A stretch of DNA of 56,796 bases from Brevinematales bacterium (GTDB lineage: Bacteria > Spirochaetota > Brevinematia > Brevinematales > Thermospiraceae). Below the pieces are notes generated by a model. It saw only the letters and a list, made by a program, of their open reading frames with translations. It was not told the DNA's origin and searched no databases. A program made the position numbers and the translations under genes. Location of the stretch: contig JABLXN010000010.1 in NCBI GenBank assembly GCA_013177995.1, positions 1-56,796 of the forward strand, written 5' to 3'. Positions 8,673 to 56,723 of this stretch are shown piece by piece (the first letter of the stretch is position 1; each line of letters starts with the position of its first letter).

Positions 8673-8731
8673 GGAAAGAGGATTTCTTTTTTTGGTACTC
8701 ACTATGATAAAGAGTTTTTTGAGCGGAGATG

Positions 8732-8782
8732 GCTATTCCTTTGTTTCAGCTACGAGGGCTTTGGCTGAAACATCGATAGAGC
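8732..8782. repeat. Palindromic repeat, copy 1
   Basis: Left arm GCTATTCCTTTGTTTCAGC at 8732-8750, a 13-nt loop, right arm at 8764-8782 beginning GCTGAAACA. The outer part of the right arm is degenerate. Same family as the copies at 12565, 31677, 42619, 49110, 52426, 55373 and 56670. Confidence 0.85.
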
Positions 8783-8945
8783 CCCCGCCCCTGCTTGCGG
8801 TGCCTTCTGACAGAAGCCACCAGGGGAACACATGCCCCGCGGACCTGGTGGGAGAGGGCTCCATTCTCCTGCCGATGTCCGAGCTACAGGAGGTGGCGAG
8901 GAAGCCCGGGGTCAGACATGGAGGGCTGTCCCCTGCAGGGGTCTC
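8783..8945. other. GC-rich, hairpin-rich intergenic block
   Basis: Much more GC-rich than its surroundings and without a credible gene. Visible stems: ccaccagg (8817-8824) with cctggtgg (8844-8851); ctcct (about 8865) with aggag (about 8888); gggct (8856) with agccc (8903); and cccc-tgca-gggg at 8930-8941. The first bases after the palindromic repeat (ccccgcccctgc...gcggtg) recur inverted next to the repeat copy at 12565. Could be a structured RNA or a decayed element. Confidence 0.55.
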
Positions 8946-9086: not shown

Positions 9087-11180
9087 ATGGATATTTCACC
9101 TTTTCTTTTTGAAATAGCGGAGACACTTTTTGTCAAATATACAGCCTTTTTGCAGGGAAGGGAAAAAGAGAAAGTTTCTCTCAAAGGCTCTCTCTCTGAT
9201 TACAAAAAGGCGTTTCAAAAATTGAGCAAAACGATGCCTTCTCTTTCCTATGAGGAGAAGAAACTGGTTCTTCTTCTCTTTTCGGCCATGACCCATGATA
9301 AGCCCCAGCAAAATCTCTGGGATGTGGTGAGGTTTTTTCATCGTCACCCTAAAAGACAACTCTTGTGGCTATCTCGTATTCTCTCTTCTGATCATCGGTT
9401 GTACACGGATGATTGGATGATAGTGCAGGGAGGATGGCCAGCCGAGAACCAGATGAACGAGTTTTTTACCCTTTCGGATTATTTGTCCACTATTTACCAC
9501 CATCGGGTAGTGCTCAATGTGATTGGCTATGGGAAATTGATCAAAAATCTTTTCCCGACGGTAAAGTCGAATTCTTTGCCCTTTTTTATCAAGAAGGGGC
9601 GATATACCACTCTCTCGGCTTTTTTGCATGATATTGAGGTGTTCTTCTCCCATGTGAAGTTTTACAAGACCTTGGTAAATGAATCTCTTCTGGGAAGTCC
9701 ACATCAACCATGGTTTGAGAAAGAGCCTTTTGCTACCATGATCGATACGATCAGGGAGAATATGGACACCACAGAGGAAGAGACCCTTGAATATATCTCT
9801 CATATGATGAGTGCCGCGGTGAGAGTGTTATATACCGATCTTTTCAAAACCTATCGTCCTTTGTGGGTTTTCTATTTTTATTTGGTCTATCTGGTGTTCA
9901 TTCGTCAGGATACGCAGCAGAGTATTGAGCATGCCATTCAGATGCTTTGTGTTTTACCAGAGGAGATTTCTCTTGTTCTGTCCTTTTTCCATCCGGAAGG
10001 GGTATTTTTGAAAAATGGGCTTATCAAGTTAGTTTCTCGGGACTTTTTTATTGAAGAGGACGAGGAAGAATCGCAAAACTCCTTTGGAGAAACGCTTCCT
10101 ATTCTGTCGAAAAACTTTGAGGTGAACAAAGAGGATTTTTATCGGTTAATCAACTTCTTCCTTGATCGTAATGAGGCCTTGAAGGCTCAGTTGACCTGTC
10201 CTGTGGTTCTTCCTTCCAAGGGAGAAGAACCAGAAGAAGCCACTCCACCTTTTGATATAGACTGGCTTTTTGAGTCCACTTCTCGTGAACCAGAACCCGT
10301 TCAGAAAGAAAACACCACATCGGTGATCACGGTAGAGAAGAAAGAAACTCTTTATGAGATCATTAAGCCCAATATCAATCTCAGTAAGATTATTCTTGAT
10401 GAGGATGTGAAACAGGAACTTCTCAATGCGGTGGATATGACCAAGACGATGAAGGTTCTCAAGAGGTGGGGAGTGAAGCCTTCGCTTGCCCAGAAAGAGG
10501 CTTCTTCAGTGAAGATTCTTCTCTATGGTATCTCCGGGACAGGAAAGACGATTACGGCTCAGGCACTTGCCGGCGAGGCTCATGCGAAACTTTTCAAGGT
10601 AGATGCCGCGAACCTTGTGAGTTCTTTTGTAGGAGAATCTACCAAGAACGTTAAACGGGTCTTCGAGGAATACTATAATTATGTCAAAAACTCCAAGGAA
10701 ACCGTCTTCTTCTTCATCAATGAGGCGGATCAGCTTTTGAGTTCGCGAGGTATGATTCATCAGGCGGCCGACAAGGAGTACAATCAGATGCAGAATCTTC
10801 TTCTCGAGGAGATTGAAAACTTTCAAGGGGTGTTTATCGCAACCACAAATTTGATTGAACTTTTTGATGTAGCCTGGAACAGGCGTTTTAATATCAAGAT
10901 TCGCTTTGATGTGCCCAAGTATGAGACTCGTTTGAAACTCTGGCAGGTTCATATCTCTGAAAAGATGCCACTGGCTCCAGATGTGAATCTCGAGAAACTT
11001 GCGGAATATGAACTCGCTGGTGGGTCTATTGCTAATGTGGTTTACAATGCGGCTCGAAAAGCAGCTGCCAGGACAGGGACAGAACAGATTATCACACAGA
11101 AGGATTTTCTGGATGCAATCGACAAGGAAATGAAGTCTATTCTTGGTCTTTCTGCCAAAAAAGTGGGTTTTAATCGATAA
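9087..11180 (+). CDS. AAA-family ATPase
   Basis: 697 aa. The N-terminal 400 residues are mostly helical and unrecognised, with an acidic stretch (EEDEEESQNS) near 320. The C-terminal AAA module has Walker A GISGTGKT near residue 480, Walker B region ETVFFFINEADQLLS near 540, sensor 1 FIATTNL near 590, and an arginine-finger region DVAWNRRFNIKIRFDVP near 600. The Walker B aspartate position is Asn (NEAD, not DEAD), a substitution that occurs in some bacterial AAA proteins. The second region, GGSIANVVYNAARKAA, is the usual sensor 2 helix. Start ATG with aaaggag. Likely a protein-remodelling ATPase; the client is unknown. It is followed by a 9-bp gap and the next gene. Confidence 0.85.
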   Translation: MDISPFLFEIAETLFVKYTAFLQGREKEKVSLKGSLSDYKKAFQKLSKTMPSLSYEEKKLVLLLFSAMTHDKPQQNLWDVVRFFHRHPKRQLLWLSRILSSDHRLYTDDWMIVQGGWPAENQMNEFFTLSDYLSTIYHHRVVLNVIGYGKLIKNLFPTVKSNSLPFFIKKGRYTTLSAFLHDIEVFFSHVKFYKTLVNESLLGSPHQPWFEKEPFATMIDTIRENMDTTEEETLEYISHMMSAAVRVLYTDLFKTYRPLWVFYFYLVYLVFIRQDTQQSIEHAIQMLCVLPEEISLVLSFFHPEGVFLKNGLIKLVSRDFFIEEDEEESQNSFGETLPILSKNFEVNKEDFYRLINFFLDRNEALKAQLTCPVVLPSKGEEPEEATPPFDIDWLFESTSREPEPVQKENTTSVITVEKKETLYEIIKPNINLSKIILDEDVKQELLNAVDMTKTMKVLKRWGVKPSLAQKEASSVKILLYGISGTGKTITAQALAGEAHAKLFKVDAANLVSSFVGESTKNVKRVFEEYYNYVKNSKETVFFFINEADQLLSSRGMIHQAADKEYNQMQNLLLEEIENFQGVFIATTNLIELFDVAWNRRFNIKIRFDVPKYETRLKLWQVHISEKMPLAPDVNLEKLAEYELAGGSIANVVYNAARKAAARTGTEQIITQKDFLDAIDKEMKSILGLSAKKVGFNR

Positions 11181-11189
11181 GGGAGTGGC

Positions 11190-11987
11190 ATGAGCTGGGT
11201 ACTTTTTGGGGGACTTGGCTATGAAAAGAGGTTGTGGGAGGTTTTGGGAAAACCTTCTTTCAAAGTAGTAGGAACGGACTATGTCCTTTCTACGGAGTCT
11301 TTTACCCCTGCCCCATGGGCGGATGGGGTGTTTGCTGAGTATCTCACTCATAATTATGCCGGGCTTGTGGCTGAGTCTGAAGGGATTATTCATCTGTCCA
11401 ATAGCCTTTTTTCCTGTTATGTCGCTATAGATATGGCCATTCTTTATCAAAAACCTGCCTGGGTTTTTCTTCCAGGGAGATCGTGGAGGCTTTTGTTTCT
11501 TTCACAAGGAGAAGGGGGATGTATAGGATGTACAGAACCATATCATCCACCAAAACCAGCGATGGTATGGGAGAAGTTCTCTCCTGAATGGCTTGAGCTT
11601 TTGGCTACTTTCTGGAAAAATTCCCCCACAAGCAGTACTCTCTGGGAGAAGGAAGGGGAGATGAAAATACTACCACGAAGGGAAGATTGTCCTTTGCATG
11701 GGGAGGAGCATCCTTATGCCACAGGGAAACATCAGCTTGTGGTGGCTGTTTCCTGCGGGGAGAACTCTGTAGCGATTACGCCGTCTTTTGAAAGGGCAAT
11801 AGATCTCTCCGGTTATCTTGAGGAGATAAAGCCGTTTGTGCGCCTTCGAAAGAGCAATGTTTTTTTTGTAGAGATGGAGTATGAAAAATTTTCCTGTCTT
11901 GTTTTCAGACAGGGGAGGTTTATTGTAAAAGGTACGAAAGAGAAGAATACGGCTCTCTATCTTTATCGCCAATTGGTGGGAGTTTGA
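11190..11987 (+). CDS. ThiF/MoeB-like (E1-type) protein lacking the ATP-binding half
   Basis: 265 aa, not firmly recognised. A central segment (GCIGCTEP, and CPLHG further on) resembles the zinc-cysteine region of ThiF/MoeB/HesA adenylating enzymes. The C-terminus (VFRQGRFIVKGTKEKNTALYLYRQLVG) is very like the tail of that family. The N-terminal glycine-rich ATP loop and the catalytic arginine region are absent, so it starts inside the fold and probably does not adenylate. Co-transcribed with the AAA ATPase (9-bp gap). The stop codon lies inside a 17-bp direct repeat that flanks the element at 11998, so the extreme C-terminus may have been shaped by that insertion. Confidence 0.5.
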   Translation: MSWVLFGGLGYEKRLWEVLGKPSFKVVGTDYVLSTESFTPAPWADGVFAEYLTHNYAGLVAESEGIIHLSNSLFSCYVAIDMAILYQKPAWVFLPGRSWRLLFLSQGEGGCIGCTEPYHPPKPAMVWEKFSPEWLELLATFWKNSPTSSTLWEKEGEMKILPRREDCPLHGEEHPYATGKHQLVVAVSCGENSVAITPSFERAIDLSGYLEEIKPFVRLRKSNVFFVEMEYEKFSCLVFRQGRFIVKGTKEKNTALYLYRQLVGV

Positions 11988-11997
11988 AAAAATTTTG
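11981..11997 (+). repeat. 17-bp direct repeat, left flank of the 11998-12747 element
   Basis: agtttgaaaaaattttg, identical to 12748-12764. It abuts the left terminal inverted repeat. It could be a long target-site duplication or an attL/attR-type pair. Confidence 0.75.
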
Positions 11998-12184
11998 TGT
12001 CGTTCCACATTCATACAGAATGGTTATCTTCACACAAAAACTGAATACTTGTTCGGCCATCTTTTCTCTTTCAGTTTTAGGCTCTTTTTGTCACCCATCT
12101 TCCTTCTTCTACGAAGCGCTCCCGCGCGGGGCAAAAGGGGCGTTATCCTCGTCGCATGCTACGCATGCGCCTCGGACGGAGAAT

Positions 12185-12452
12185 GGGCCGCTTTTGCGGG
12201 TATAGAAAGACCTCTTTTCTTTGCGGGGAAGTCCTTCCTCCGTGGGCGACATCAACTCGTCCTCCTGAACTTCGGAAGTATAGCGCCCACCTCGCTTCGC
12301 CGATTCCCCGCTAAAGCGGGGTCCCCGCGGCTCCACTTCGGTGGGCTTTTGGGGAAAAGCAACAGAAGATGTCGCCCCGGGTGCCTCCTGCACCCTCACT
12401 CCGGAAGGACTTCCTCCTTACGACAAAAGGCACACAACCGCAAAAGCGGCCC
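12185..12452. ncRNA. Candidate structured RNA inside the TIR element
   Basis: Three perfectly complementary, correctly nested segments are seen: 12185-12199 with 12438-12452 (15 bp), 12227-12238 with 12403-12414 (12 bp), and 12244-12253 with 12368-12377 (10 bp). Inside them are local hairpins: ccccgct/agcgggg (12306-12321), ccac-TTCG-gtgg (12333-12344), aacTTCGgaagt near 12270 and gggtgc-ctcct-gcaccc (12379-12395). UUCG-type loops are typical of selected RNA. The strand is undecided. It does not contain the conserved segments I know for RNase P, tmRNA or SRP RNA. Confidence 0.5.
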
Positions 12453-12564
12453 GGTGGGGTACAGAAAAAAAGGGCGATAAAAGAACCGTGCATTCTTTCA
12501 CCAGCACGCGGGGCTTCTCTTCCAGAAGGGGCTTTTTAGATATATCACCGCGGCAGGGGCGAGG

Positions 12565-12618
12565 GCTATGACTTTGTTTCAGCAAAGAGCAATGGTTTAG
12601 CTGAAACAGGGTAATAGC
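12565..12618. repeat. Palindromic repeat, copy 2
   Basis: Left arm GCTATGACTTTGTTTCAGC at 12565-12583, 16-nt loop, right arm GCTGAAACAGGGTAATAGC at 12600-12618. Lies inside the 11998-12747 element at the edge of its GC-rich core. Confidence 0.85.
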
Positions 12619-12747
12619 TCTATCTTGCCCTAATGCTTTCAAGAGCAACTTTTTTCAATAGGCATCATAACAAAAAGCTTTTGTGTTGTTTCCCTGTTCA
12701 TAAGAAATGTGAAAGTAGCTATTCAGTTTCATATGTGGAACGACAAG

Positions 12748-12764
12748 AGTTTGAAAAAATTTTG
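12748..12764 (+). repeat. 17-bp direct repeat, right flank of the 11998-12747 element
   Basis: Identical to 11981-11997 and begins two bases after the right terminal inverted repeat. Confidence 0.75.
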
Positions 12765-13429: not shown

Positions 13430-13692
13430 TAGGTCTTATTCGGTTTTACCAGAGGTATATTTCCATTCATTTGCCCCGTTCGTGTCTTTATCATCCCTCT
13501 TGTTCGGAGTACACCGTGGAGATGATTCGCCGGCATGGGGTTTTTCGTGGTCTTGTTGGGGGGATTCTTCGCGTTTTTCGTTGTCAGGGATGGTTGTTTA
13601 TAGGGGGAAATGATCCTGTTCCACGCTTTTTTTCCTGGAGGAGAATTTTGAGTCGGTATCCCTTTTTCTGGAAGGGGAGAAGAAAAAGATGA
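13414..13692 (+). CDS. yidD: Membrane protein insertion efficiency factor YidD
   Basis: 92 aa. Conserved YidD core: IRFYQRYIS, then CLYHPSCSEYTVEMIRRHG with its cysteines, and GILRVFRCQGW. The usual C-terminal GGNDPVP is present. The start is GTG at 13414 and overlaps rnpA by 16 bp. In most bacteria yidC follows, but here the stop codon touches a 204-bp repeat element and a gene on the opposite strand comes next. Helps membrane protein insertion at the inner membrane. Confidence 0.93.
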   Translation: MQRVLIGLIRFYQRYISIHLPRSCLYHPSCSEYTVEMIRRHGVFRGLVGGILRVFRCQGWLFIGGNDPVPRFFSWRRILSRYPFFWKGRRKR

Positions 13693-13894
13693 GACCCTTG
13701 CACGGATGTTTTCTTTCCCTGTCTGGGTCAGGGGCTACGCCCCTGAAACCCCGATTTTTCTGTTTACAAGAGCCGGTTTGTCTTTTTTATTCAAAAAAAT
13801 TGGTTTATTTATTACAGCACGGAATATTTTGATACTAATTTTTGTTTCTTTATTACTTTTTTGAGACCTTTGCACGAATGTGCAAAGGTCTCAA
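13690..13894 (-). repeat. 204-bp MITE-like repeat, copy A (inverted)
   Basis: Ends are gagacccttgcacggatg (13691) and a perfect 15-bp hairpin ttgagacctttgcac-GAAT-gtgcaaaggtctcaa (13861-13894). Inside is a GC-rich hairpin tcaggggc-tac-gcccctga near 13730-13750 and an AT-rich middle. Homologous along its length to 19841-20043 and 46290-46493, in the opposite orientation. aaagat flanks both sides (13685-13690 and 13893-13898), a possible target duplication. It starts at the yidD stop codon. Confidence 0.8.
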
Positions 13895-13946
13895 AGATAG
13901 AGAACCTTTCCGAGGATAAGCTGGTGGGTGTTTTTCTCAATTAGGA

Positions 13947-19785: not shown

Positions 19786-19840
19786 ATGTTCCCCTCTTCT
19801 TTTGTATTAGTATACCAAAAAAGGGTAAAAAAAGCCAGTT

Positions 19841-20043
19841 TTGAGACCTTTGCACATTCGTGCAGAGGTCTCAAAAAAGGAATAAAAACAAAATAGAGTA
19901 TAAAAAATATTCTTTGTAGTAATAAATACCTCCATTTTTTTTGAATAAAAAAGACAAATAAGCCCTTCTGAACAGAAAAAGCGGGGAAGAGGGGCGTAGC
20001 CCCTGACCCAGATCGGGGAAGAAAACACCGTCGCAAGGGGTTA
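19841..20043 (+). repeat. 204-bp MITE-like repeat, copy B
   Basis: Begins with ttgagacctttgcac-ATTC-gtgcagaggtctcaa (19841-19874), continues through an AT-rich middle with aaaaagcgggg, the GC hairpin aggggcgtagcccct near 19990-20005, and ends gaaaacaccgtcgcaagggg. The right end is degenerate relative to copy A. It fills the gap between the divergent PBP and WecG-like genes; the rest of that 334-bp gap holds only the promoter below. Confidence 0.8.
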
Positions 20044-42463: not shown

Positions 42464-42829
42464 TATTTCAGGGGAAGTTTTTTTGGAAAAAGAACATTTT
42501 TTTGATGTTTTCTCTATCCTCCTGAGGAGGGATTTTCATCTTCCCCGAGAAGAGGGGGCTATAATTTTGTTGGTATTTTCTATTGAGAAATTTTTTGGGA
42601 TTTATACCATGGTTTTTAGCTATTCCTTTGTTTCAGCGAAACGACGGCTTTTGCTGAGATAGGGTAAGAGCCATGTTGTTAAACATTGTGTACCAAAGAA
42701 GGGAAGAAGATGAACTGAGACTTCTTTCTAACCCTTACAAACTTTTTCTTTTTCGTCGATATGTTTTTTTCCTGGGCTTTACAGCAGAGTACTTTGATTA
42801 AGGAAAAAGGAAAGCTCTGAAAAAGCCCC
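42464..42829. other. Gene-free region with palindromic repeat
   Basis: Holds the repeat copy at 42619-42671. I see no gene, tRNA or clear terminator in the remainder; the stop of the cyclic-nucleotide/MBL gene closes the right side. Confidence 0.6.
42619..42671. repeat. Palindromic repeat, copy 4
   Basis: Left arm GCTATTCCTTTGTTTCAGC at 42619-42637, 15-nt loop, right arm GCTGAGATAGGGTAAGAGC at 42653-42671. The left arm is identical to copy 1. Confidence 0.85.
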
Positions 42830-46185: not shown

Positions 46186-46289
46186 AAAGCCTCCATGCTA
46201 CTTTGTAAGTATCGGATAGGAACCAGTGAAATATTTAACAAATGAGAAAAAACTCCTAATACAAGGTGTGGCTGCGAATTGATTTCTCA

Positions 46290-46493
46290 TTAAGATCTTT
46301 GCACGAATGTTCCAAGGTCTTAAAAAGTAATAAAAACAGAAATATTATAAAAAATATTTATTTTTATAATAAAAAATTCTGTTTTTTTGAACTAAAAAGA
46401 GAAATAAGCCATTGTAAATAGAAAAAGCGGGGTTTCAGGGGCGCAGCCCCTGGGCCCGAGAGGGGGTGAAAATACCCCTGCAAGGATCTCTTA
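46290..46493 (+). repeat. 204-bp MITE-like repeat, copy C
   Basis: Starts ttaagatctttgcac-GAAT-gttccaaggtcttaa (46290-46323), AT-rich middle with aaaaagcgggg, GC hairpin aggggcgcagcccct near 46438-46453, and ends cccctgcaaggatctctta. Same orientation as copy B. It occupies most of the 349-bp gap between 46186 and 46534; nothing else is seen there. Confidence 0.8.
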
Positions 46494-49109: not shown

Positions 49110-49163
49110 GCTATTCCCTTATTTCAGCTAAAAAGGGGGCTTTTGCTGAAACAAGGGAATAGC
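49110..49163. repeat. Palindromic repeat, copy 5 (best match to consensus)
   Basis: Left arm GCTATTCCCTTATTTCAGC at 49110-49128, 16-nt loop, right arm GCTGAAACAAGGGAATAGC at 49145-49163. The arms pair at 18 of 19 positions. Lies between divergent pfkA and the TPR gene, outside both promoters. Confidence 0.92.
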
Positions 49164-49272
49164 CCGTCTTTTTACCATAACTTTACAGCTTTGCCGCTTC
49201 CAAATGGCCATACCTTTTTTCTCCTGTGAGGTGGTGCTTTATTTGGGTGAAAGGAAAAAAGAAATAATTTTT

Positions 49273-56537: not shown

Positions 56538-56723
56538 GCTATCACCCTGTTTCAGCAAAACTCATGAGGCAAGGGGAAGAAGAGGTAAGGTTTTAGCCTT
56601 TGGCTATTACCCTATTTCAGCAAAATCATATGCTTTGGGGTCAACTAGGATAGTACCACTGTTCCTTCGGCTATCACCTTATTTCAGCAAACCCCCTTCT
56701 TTTAGCTGAAACATGGTAATAGC
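56538..56723. repeat. Half-repeat array of the palindromic family, copy 8
   Basis: Left arms recur directly at 56538-56556 (GCTATCACCCTGTTTCAGC), 56603-56621 (GCTATTACCCTATTTCAGC) and 56670-56688 (GCTATCACCTTATTTCAGC), at 65 and 67-bp steps. Only the last is followed by a right arm, GCTGAAACATGGTAATAGC at 56705-56723. The 46- and 48-bp segments between half-repeats differ from each other. No Cas gene is in the window. Confidence 0.8.

Follow-up and report, generated by a model that had tools for sequence, protein, structure and literature searches.

Downstream of the gene at 11190-11987, the window (the whole 56,796-nt stretch of DNA analyzed here, from a Brevinematales bacterium) contains a 748-bp element that is bounded by terminal inverted repeats (TIRs) and flanked by 18-19-bp target-site duplications, the left of which (GAGTTTGAAAAAATTTTG) overlaps the stop codon of that gene (Table 1). 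The first-pass annotation had described, in part of this region, a GC-rich, UUCG-capped RNA of three nested arm pairs, carried as the cargo of an element. The three arm pairs are present (15, 12 and 9-10 bp), the nested structure is real, and the core is indeed GC-rich (~62% G+C vs 45% for the window), but the feature is larger than reported, the nested structure being the interior of the 748-bp element.

Table 1. The element, its RNA domain and related sequences in the window
Feature	Position	Strand	Evidence and remarks
Non-autonomous IS-derived (MITE-like) element, 748 bp	11998-12745	none	ends and 18-bp duplications are those of the 1.37-kb IS
Left target-site duplication, (G)GAGTTTGAAAAAATTTTG	11979-11997		18/18 identical to right copy; 19 with one mismatch
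Right target-site duplication	12746-12764		
Left TIR, TGTCGTTCCACAT, 13 bp	11998-12010	+	13/13 complementary to right end
Right TIR	12733-12745	-	
RNA domain A	12147-12470	- (probable sense strand)	17 full-length copies in the same genome, 2 in G002; covariation; folding
Terminal hairpin, CGAG/CGAG tandem G.A internal loop	12147-12177	-	sequence; L110 and L118 have counterparts that differ in sequence
Outer stem P2, arm 1	12185-12199		partner 12438-12452 (arm 2); 15 bp, 100% complementary
Stem P3, arms 1 and 2	12225-12238, 12403-12416		in G002, an 18-bp stem of other sequence in the same place
12-bp arm pair, GGAAGTCCTTCC / GGAAGGACTTCC	12227-12238, 12403-12414		read from sequence and fold
Stem P4, arms 1 and 2	12244-12252, 12369-12377		9-10-bp arm pair GGGCGACAT / ATGTCGCCC, read from sequence and fold; one pair is AU, CG or GC depending on the copy
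Hairpin M	12259-12270	-	loop AGGAG (12266-12262); GGA in all copies read
Stems P5-P7	12285-12346	-	internal loops CGAAG/CGAG and GUA/GAA type; 8 pairs changed on both sides
Hairpin P8, GGGUGC[AGGAG]GCACCC	12379-12395	-	4/6 stem pairs covary
Remnant of domain B	12500-12563	-	its plus-strand 3' half, with outer-stem arm GCGGCAGGGGCG; alignment with domain-B elements
Free-standing fragment of domain B	8726-8933	+	both GGA hairpins; no TIRs noted
55-nt hairpin repeat	12564-12618	none	also standing alone elsewhere

The element belongs to an abundant family. In the genome of origin, 96 TIR sites were detected at up to one mismatch, compared to none for the reversed-pattern control, along with 93 DNA matches to the element, and a clear target duplication, mostly of 18 bp (range 14-19), accompanies 14 of the 32 paired elements. 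The same genome contains three longer units (1365-1372 bp) that share these ends; two of them are flanked by an 18-bp duplication, and all encode a DDE-type transposase that is intact in two units (406 aa in the translated copy). The best NCBIfam matches of this transposase, to ISNCY (NF033594, E 2e-38, 132 bits with a cut-off of 250) and IS481 (NF033577, E 6e-34), are both below the curated cut-offs, as is the score against the rve profile (24.5 bits, cut-off 32.6). TGT...ACA ends are known from IS481-like elements, and the target duplications given for the IS1202 group, which is IS481-like, measure 5-6, 15-17 or 24-29 bp (PMC10045372). The resident IS resembles the IS1202 group in its TGT...ACA ends, its long target duplications and its apparently rve-type transposase, and differs in the length of the duplications (18 rather than 15-17 bp) and the sub-threshold score of the transposase, as well as in the existence of RNA-carrying non-autonomous derivatives.

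Because the TIRs and the length of the target duplication are common to the element and the 1.37-kb IS, comparison of the sequences identifies the element as a non-autonomous derivative of this IS. Lacking a transposase and sharing both features with an autonomous IS of the same genome, it resembles MITEs, also in its high copy number; in contrast to typical MITEs, the elements of this family (565-1300 bp) are not very short, and they carry an interchangeable, covarying RNA domain. Seven contigs of the assembly (C3, C11, C12, C20, C23, C32 and C55) have a TIR ~114-127 bases from their start, so these elements probably caused the breaks in the assembly, and the true copy number is therefore likely to exceed the count. 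Two copies, L064 (C32:15109-17518) and L063 (C4:64618-66392), contain nested insertions: a transposase gene of the ISH6/ISLre2-like type and the remnant of an IS1595-like transposase.

The interior of the elements is modular. The same outer GC-rich stem can enclose either of two alternative central domains, A or B. The full-length copies of domain A are accompanied by ~20 partial ones; 12 elements yielded domain B, and a pattern describing its first hairpin has 22 matches in the genome. Modules have been exchanged and deleted, with halves of A or B lost or swapped in many copies; as a result, the arms are unpaired in those copies, many of which lack the 5' half. The free-standing domain-B fragment lies ~150 bp upstream of a long ORF (9087-11180), in the orientation opposite to that of the main element.

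Other repeats occur in and around these elements. The 55-nt hairpin repeat (TATGAC..GTTTCAGC / GCTGAAAC..GTAATAGC), which seems to form a small family of palindromic repeats in its own right, is found both inside elements and alone, with further copies in the window at 42619-42671, 49110-49164 and 56669-56723. A second family, of ~205 bp with GAGACC..GGTCTC inverted repeats, is represented in the window at 13692-13900, 19840-20039 and 46287-46489 and is also inserted within several TIR elements (C18, C21 and C7).

Both strands of the 748-bp element are predicted to fold far more stably than dinucleotide shuffles (z of -9.5 and -8.25), and the interval originally singled out, 12121-12530, has a z of -3.97. 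The UUCG caps are not a conserved feature: in the consensus of 16 copies, most CUUCGG strings fall within internal loops, and the loops conserved as caps read CUCCU on the plus strand, corresponding to AGGAG on the minus strand. A protein-coding role was rejected because the indels that distinguish the copies have lengths other than multiples of 3.

We searched for homologs with a covariance model that was built from the in-genome copies, which by themselves show covariation at a few pairs. This initial model detected a homolog in the same-genus genome G002 at E ~1e-6. After refinement with G002 copies in the training set, two copies in that genome scored 131 and 83 bits, a gain that is partly expected because both had been included in the training. 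The first G002 copy has the same nested architecture with different stem sequences: P2 reads GGCCGTTTTCGACC/GGTCGAAAACGGCC, both bases being changed in 5 of 14 pairs, and the second stem GCTTCCCGAAGAGACGGC/GCCGTCTCTTCGGGGAGC. In the second copy, the 5' outer arms are degenerate, but the terminal hairpin and inner domain are retained; tandem REP-like palindromes (GGTCGCCGAGTAGCCCCGAAGGGGCATATCGAGGCGAC) lie beside it, at L139:5443-5580. Across 12 sequences, 20 of the 47 pairs are changed on both sides, compared to a mean of 6.8 in shuffles (none of 500 reaching 20) and to 3-5 pairs in slid controls; the underlying alignment was fitted to the model, which favors the score, but the long G002 stems were also recognized as inverted repeats without recourse to the model. 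Hairpin P8 covaries even among the in-genome copies, with CG/UA and AU/GC alternatives. The proposal of a selected structured RNA as the cargo of an element is thus supported by compensatory covariation between two species, and the covariance analysis called for in the first-pass annotation recovered homologs with covarying stems.

The family appears to be narrowly distributed. Among 392 genomes of the phylum searched with covariance models, matches came only from the genome of origin and G002; the refined model did not find the family in another genome of the same genus (G001). DNA searches of 40 relatives yielded no match outside the genome of origin, and none was found in viral contigs; among the best matches listed from a plasmid collection, only the neighboring tRNA was covered. 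A single pattern-scan match in wider genome contigs (9.5 bits) was judged to be due to chance. Searches around the G002 copies for TIRs or target duplications gave nothing convincing.

These observations bear on the possibility that the structure works at the DNA level, as a palindrome that aids transposition, replication or recombination, with no RNA involved. The location between TIRs, the swapping and deletion of modules among copies and the abundance of other palindromic repeats in this genome are all compatible with such a role, which is nevertheless highly improbable: the domain is present in G002 without these TIRs, and there the stems have been rewritten with compensatory changes while the single-stranded loops persist, whereas correction of palindromes alone would not keep the loops.

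The sense strand was evaluated by several approaches. The minimum free energy is lower for the minus strand in 28 of 30 copies (16 of 18 for domain A and 12 of 12 for domain B). Wobble pairs in domain B are distributed 7:0 in favor of the minus strand, and those in domain A 8 to 6, slightly in favor of the plus strand. Each molecule, read on the minus strand, includes several internal loops of the types CGAG/CGAG, CGAAG/CGAG and GUA/GAA, which we take to be tandem G.A and loop-E-like motifs. The orientation of the elements relative to neighboring genes shows no consistent direction, and scans for promoters and terminators in or near the element returned nothing above the shuffle level. On balance, the minus strand is probably the sense strand, opposite to the plus-strand reading of the first-pass annotation. 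A plus-strand RNA, with CUCCU pentaloops that would pair with mRNA Shine-Dalgarno sequences in the manner of C-rich sRNA loops, would account for the closure of these loops by covarying stems, for the c(UUCG)g tetraloop that one G002 copy has on this strand and for the domain-A wobble count. We regard it as quite improbable in view of the folding energies and the domain-B wobble pairs, and because the internal loops that form tandem G.A motifs on the minus strand become pyrimidine-rich mismatches on the plus strand.

The element was compared to Rfam 15 (4227 families); there was no match at the gathering threshold, and at E<=5 only chance-level scores were obtained. The earlier exclusion of RNase P, SRP RNA and tmRNA accordingly stands, and Rfam 15 lacks a counterpart of the clearly covarying structured RNA carried by the element. 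The suggested analogy to HEARO/omega-RNA does not extend beyond the presence of a structured RNA on a mobile element: here, the partner is a DDE transposase, the element has two ends with TIRs and target duplications, and the Rfam HEARO model gives no match.

A persistent feature of the probable minus-strand RNA is the GGA in its hairpin loops. In P8, the loop is AGGAG in 28 cases, with the variants AGGAU, AGGAA and GGGAG (twice); altogether, all 33 recognizable P8 hairpins that were tabulated keep GGA despite variation in the stem and in the neighboring loop positions. The loop of hairpin M is AGGAG in L110 and AUGGAG in L118, and in the second G002 copy, both hairpins of domain A have hexaloops, ACGGAG and AUGGAG. 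Domain B follows the same rule, with a first hairpin GCCAC[AGGAG]GUGGC and a second hairpin loop ANGGAG (N being G, A, U or C depending on the copy) or AGGAC. Among the recognizable copies of these hairpins, none has lost GGA, and both hairpins of each domain present A(N)GGAX loops. The heptamer CAGGANG occurs twice per domain A, compared to ~0.1 in shuffles, in four of the five copies tested, and minus-strand GGA trinucleotides number 10-13 in four A domains (7.6-10.3 in shuffles) and 7 in a fifth (5.3).

This pattern makes it improbable that the RNA is the decaying remnant of an old gene that was captured by a MITE and amplified without present function. About half of the copies are truncated or recombined and no promoter was recognized, as would be expected of such a relic; the full fold, however, is kept in 17 copies, the P8 stem covaries within the genome, and GGA is invariant among variable surrounding bases.

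Loops of the A(N)GGAX type are characteristic of the binding sites of CsrA, a global regulator of translation. High-affinity CsrA/RsmE sites are ANGGAX loops, with some purine pentaloops also binding strongly (PMC4005645); the repeats of CsrB are CAGGA(U/A/C)G, with ANGGAN hexaloops (PMC7652899); and in TwoAYGGAY, a predicted CsrA binder, the GGA motifs are paired and tandem GAs are present (PMC4333381). Since CsrA is a dimer, its sites generally come in pairs. A csrA gene (PF02599) was identified in all 21 genomes searched, which makes its presence a necessary condition that does not discriminate between explanations. The link to CsrA was drawn after the loops had been inspected. A TwoAYGGAY-like hairpin pair (RF01731, clan CL00106) with the loops ACGGAU and ACGGAG, ~270 nt beyond the first G002 copy, was flagged by Rfam independently of our reading of the loops; it scores 33.8 bits (gathering threshold 43) and lies on the strand opposite to the GGA loops of that copy. 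This pair is part of a second nested structure beside the G002 RNA, at L110:1840-2330, with 17-nt arms 210 nt apart and the ACGGAU/ACGGAG hairpins on its plus strand, which might be a further CsrA-binding RNA.

Domains A and B are thus similar to the CsrB/CsrC and RsmX-Y-Z RNAs in having GGA in hairpin loops, CAGGANG heptamers, several hairpins and csrA in the genome. They differ in having two GGA hairpins per domain, compared to ~22 GGA motifs in CsrB, and in presenting these on a nested scaffold with a multibranch junction that is carried by a multicopy transposable element; there is no sequence match, and the CsrB/CsrC/Rsm models give none in Rfam at gathering or relaxed E. With TwoAYGGAY they share the two GGA-looped hairpins and the tandem G.A pairs, as well as the proximity of a TwoAYGGAY-like pair to one G002 copy; again, the RF01731 model does not match domains A and B, and the neighboring pair falls short of the gathering score and lies on the opposite strand.

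A minus-strand structured RNA could also use its GGA loops in a different role, such as tertiary contacts, binding of another protein or pairing with the anti-Shine-Dalgarno sequence of 16S rRNA. The covariation and the loop conservation would be explained by any partner that binds the loops, AGGAG also forms the core of the Shine-Dalgarno sequence, and the Rfam models of CsrA-binding RNAs do not match domains A and B. Yet the variants AGGAU, AGGAA, ACGGAG, AUGGAG and AGGAC retain GGA and the preceding A rather than the complete AGGAG, so the rules of CsrA binding fit better than anti-Shine-Dalgarno pairing, and we consider a role unrelated to CsrA rather unlikely.

On the strength of the sequence comparisons, the explanation that we moderately favor is a decoy-type CsrA-binding RNA amplified by a MITE. 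The resident IS, with its IS1202/IS481-type transposase, would spread through the genome a MITE-like relative carrying an RNA whose sense strand is most likely the minus strand and which displays paired A(N)GGAX hairpins in each domain on a tandem-G.A scaffold. By analogy to CsrB/RsmZ-type RNAs, transcripts of the copies may bind CsrA via their pairs of GGA loops and sequester it from mRNAs; another possibility is that a copy lying within a leader provides a CsrA site in cis. Weighing against this explanation are the small number of GGA sites per molecule, the promoter and terminator scans, which stayed at shuffle level, the inconsistent orientation relative to genes and the degenerate state of many copies. 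The stronger proposition, that this is an RNA class outside Rfam in which a transposon family amplified a CsrA-binding decoy to dozens of copies, a selfish element loading the global regulator of its host, is put forward more tentatively, as a possibility somewhat short of even.

CsrA-binding RNAs are of a known kind; what would be new is that a non-autonomous IS carries and amplifies one, and our searches, which mainly covered the open literature, turned up no description of a CsrA decoy RNA borne by a transposon. In 2014, CsrA-titrating RNAs were described as identified only in Gammaproteobacteria (PMC4333381), and CsrA control in other lineages is much less clear. For a structured RNA absent from Rfam, CsrA is a concrete, testable candidate ligand. 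If the proposed function is correct, a transposon that multiplies a CsrA decoy would amount to a mobile rewiring of a global regulator and would represent a route for the origin of new regulatory RNAs.
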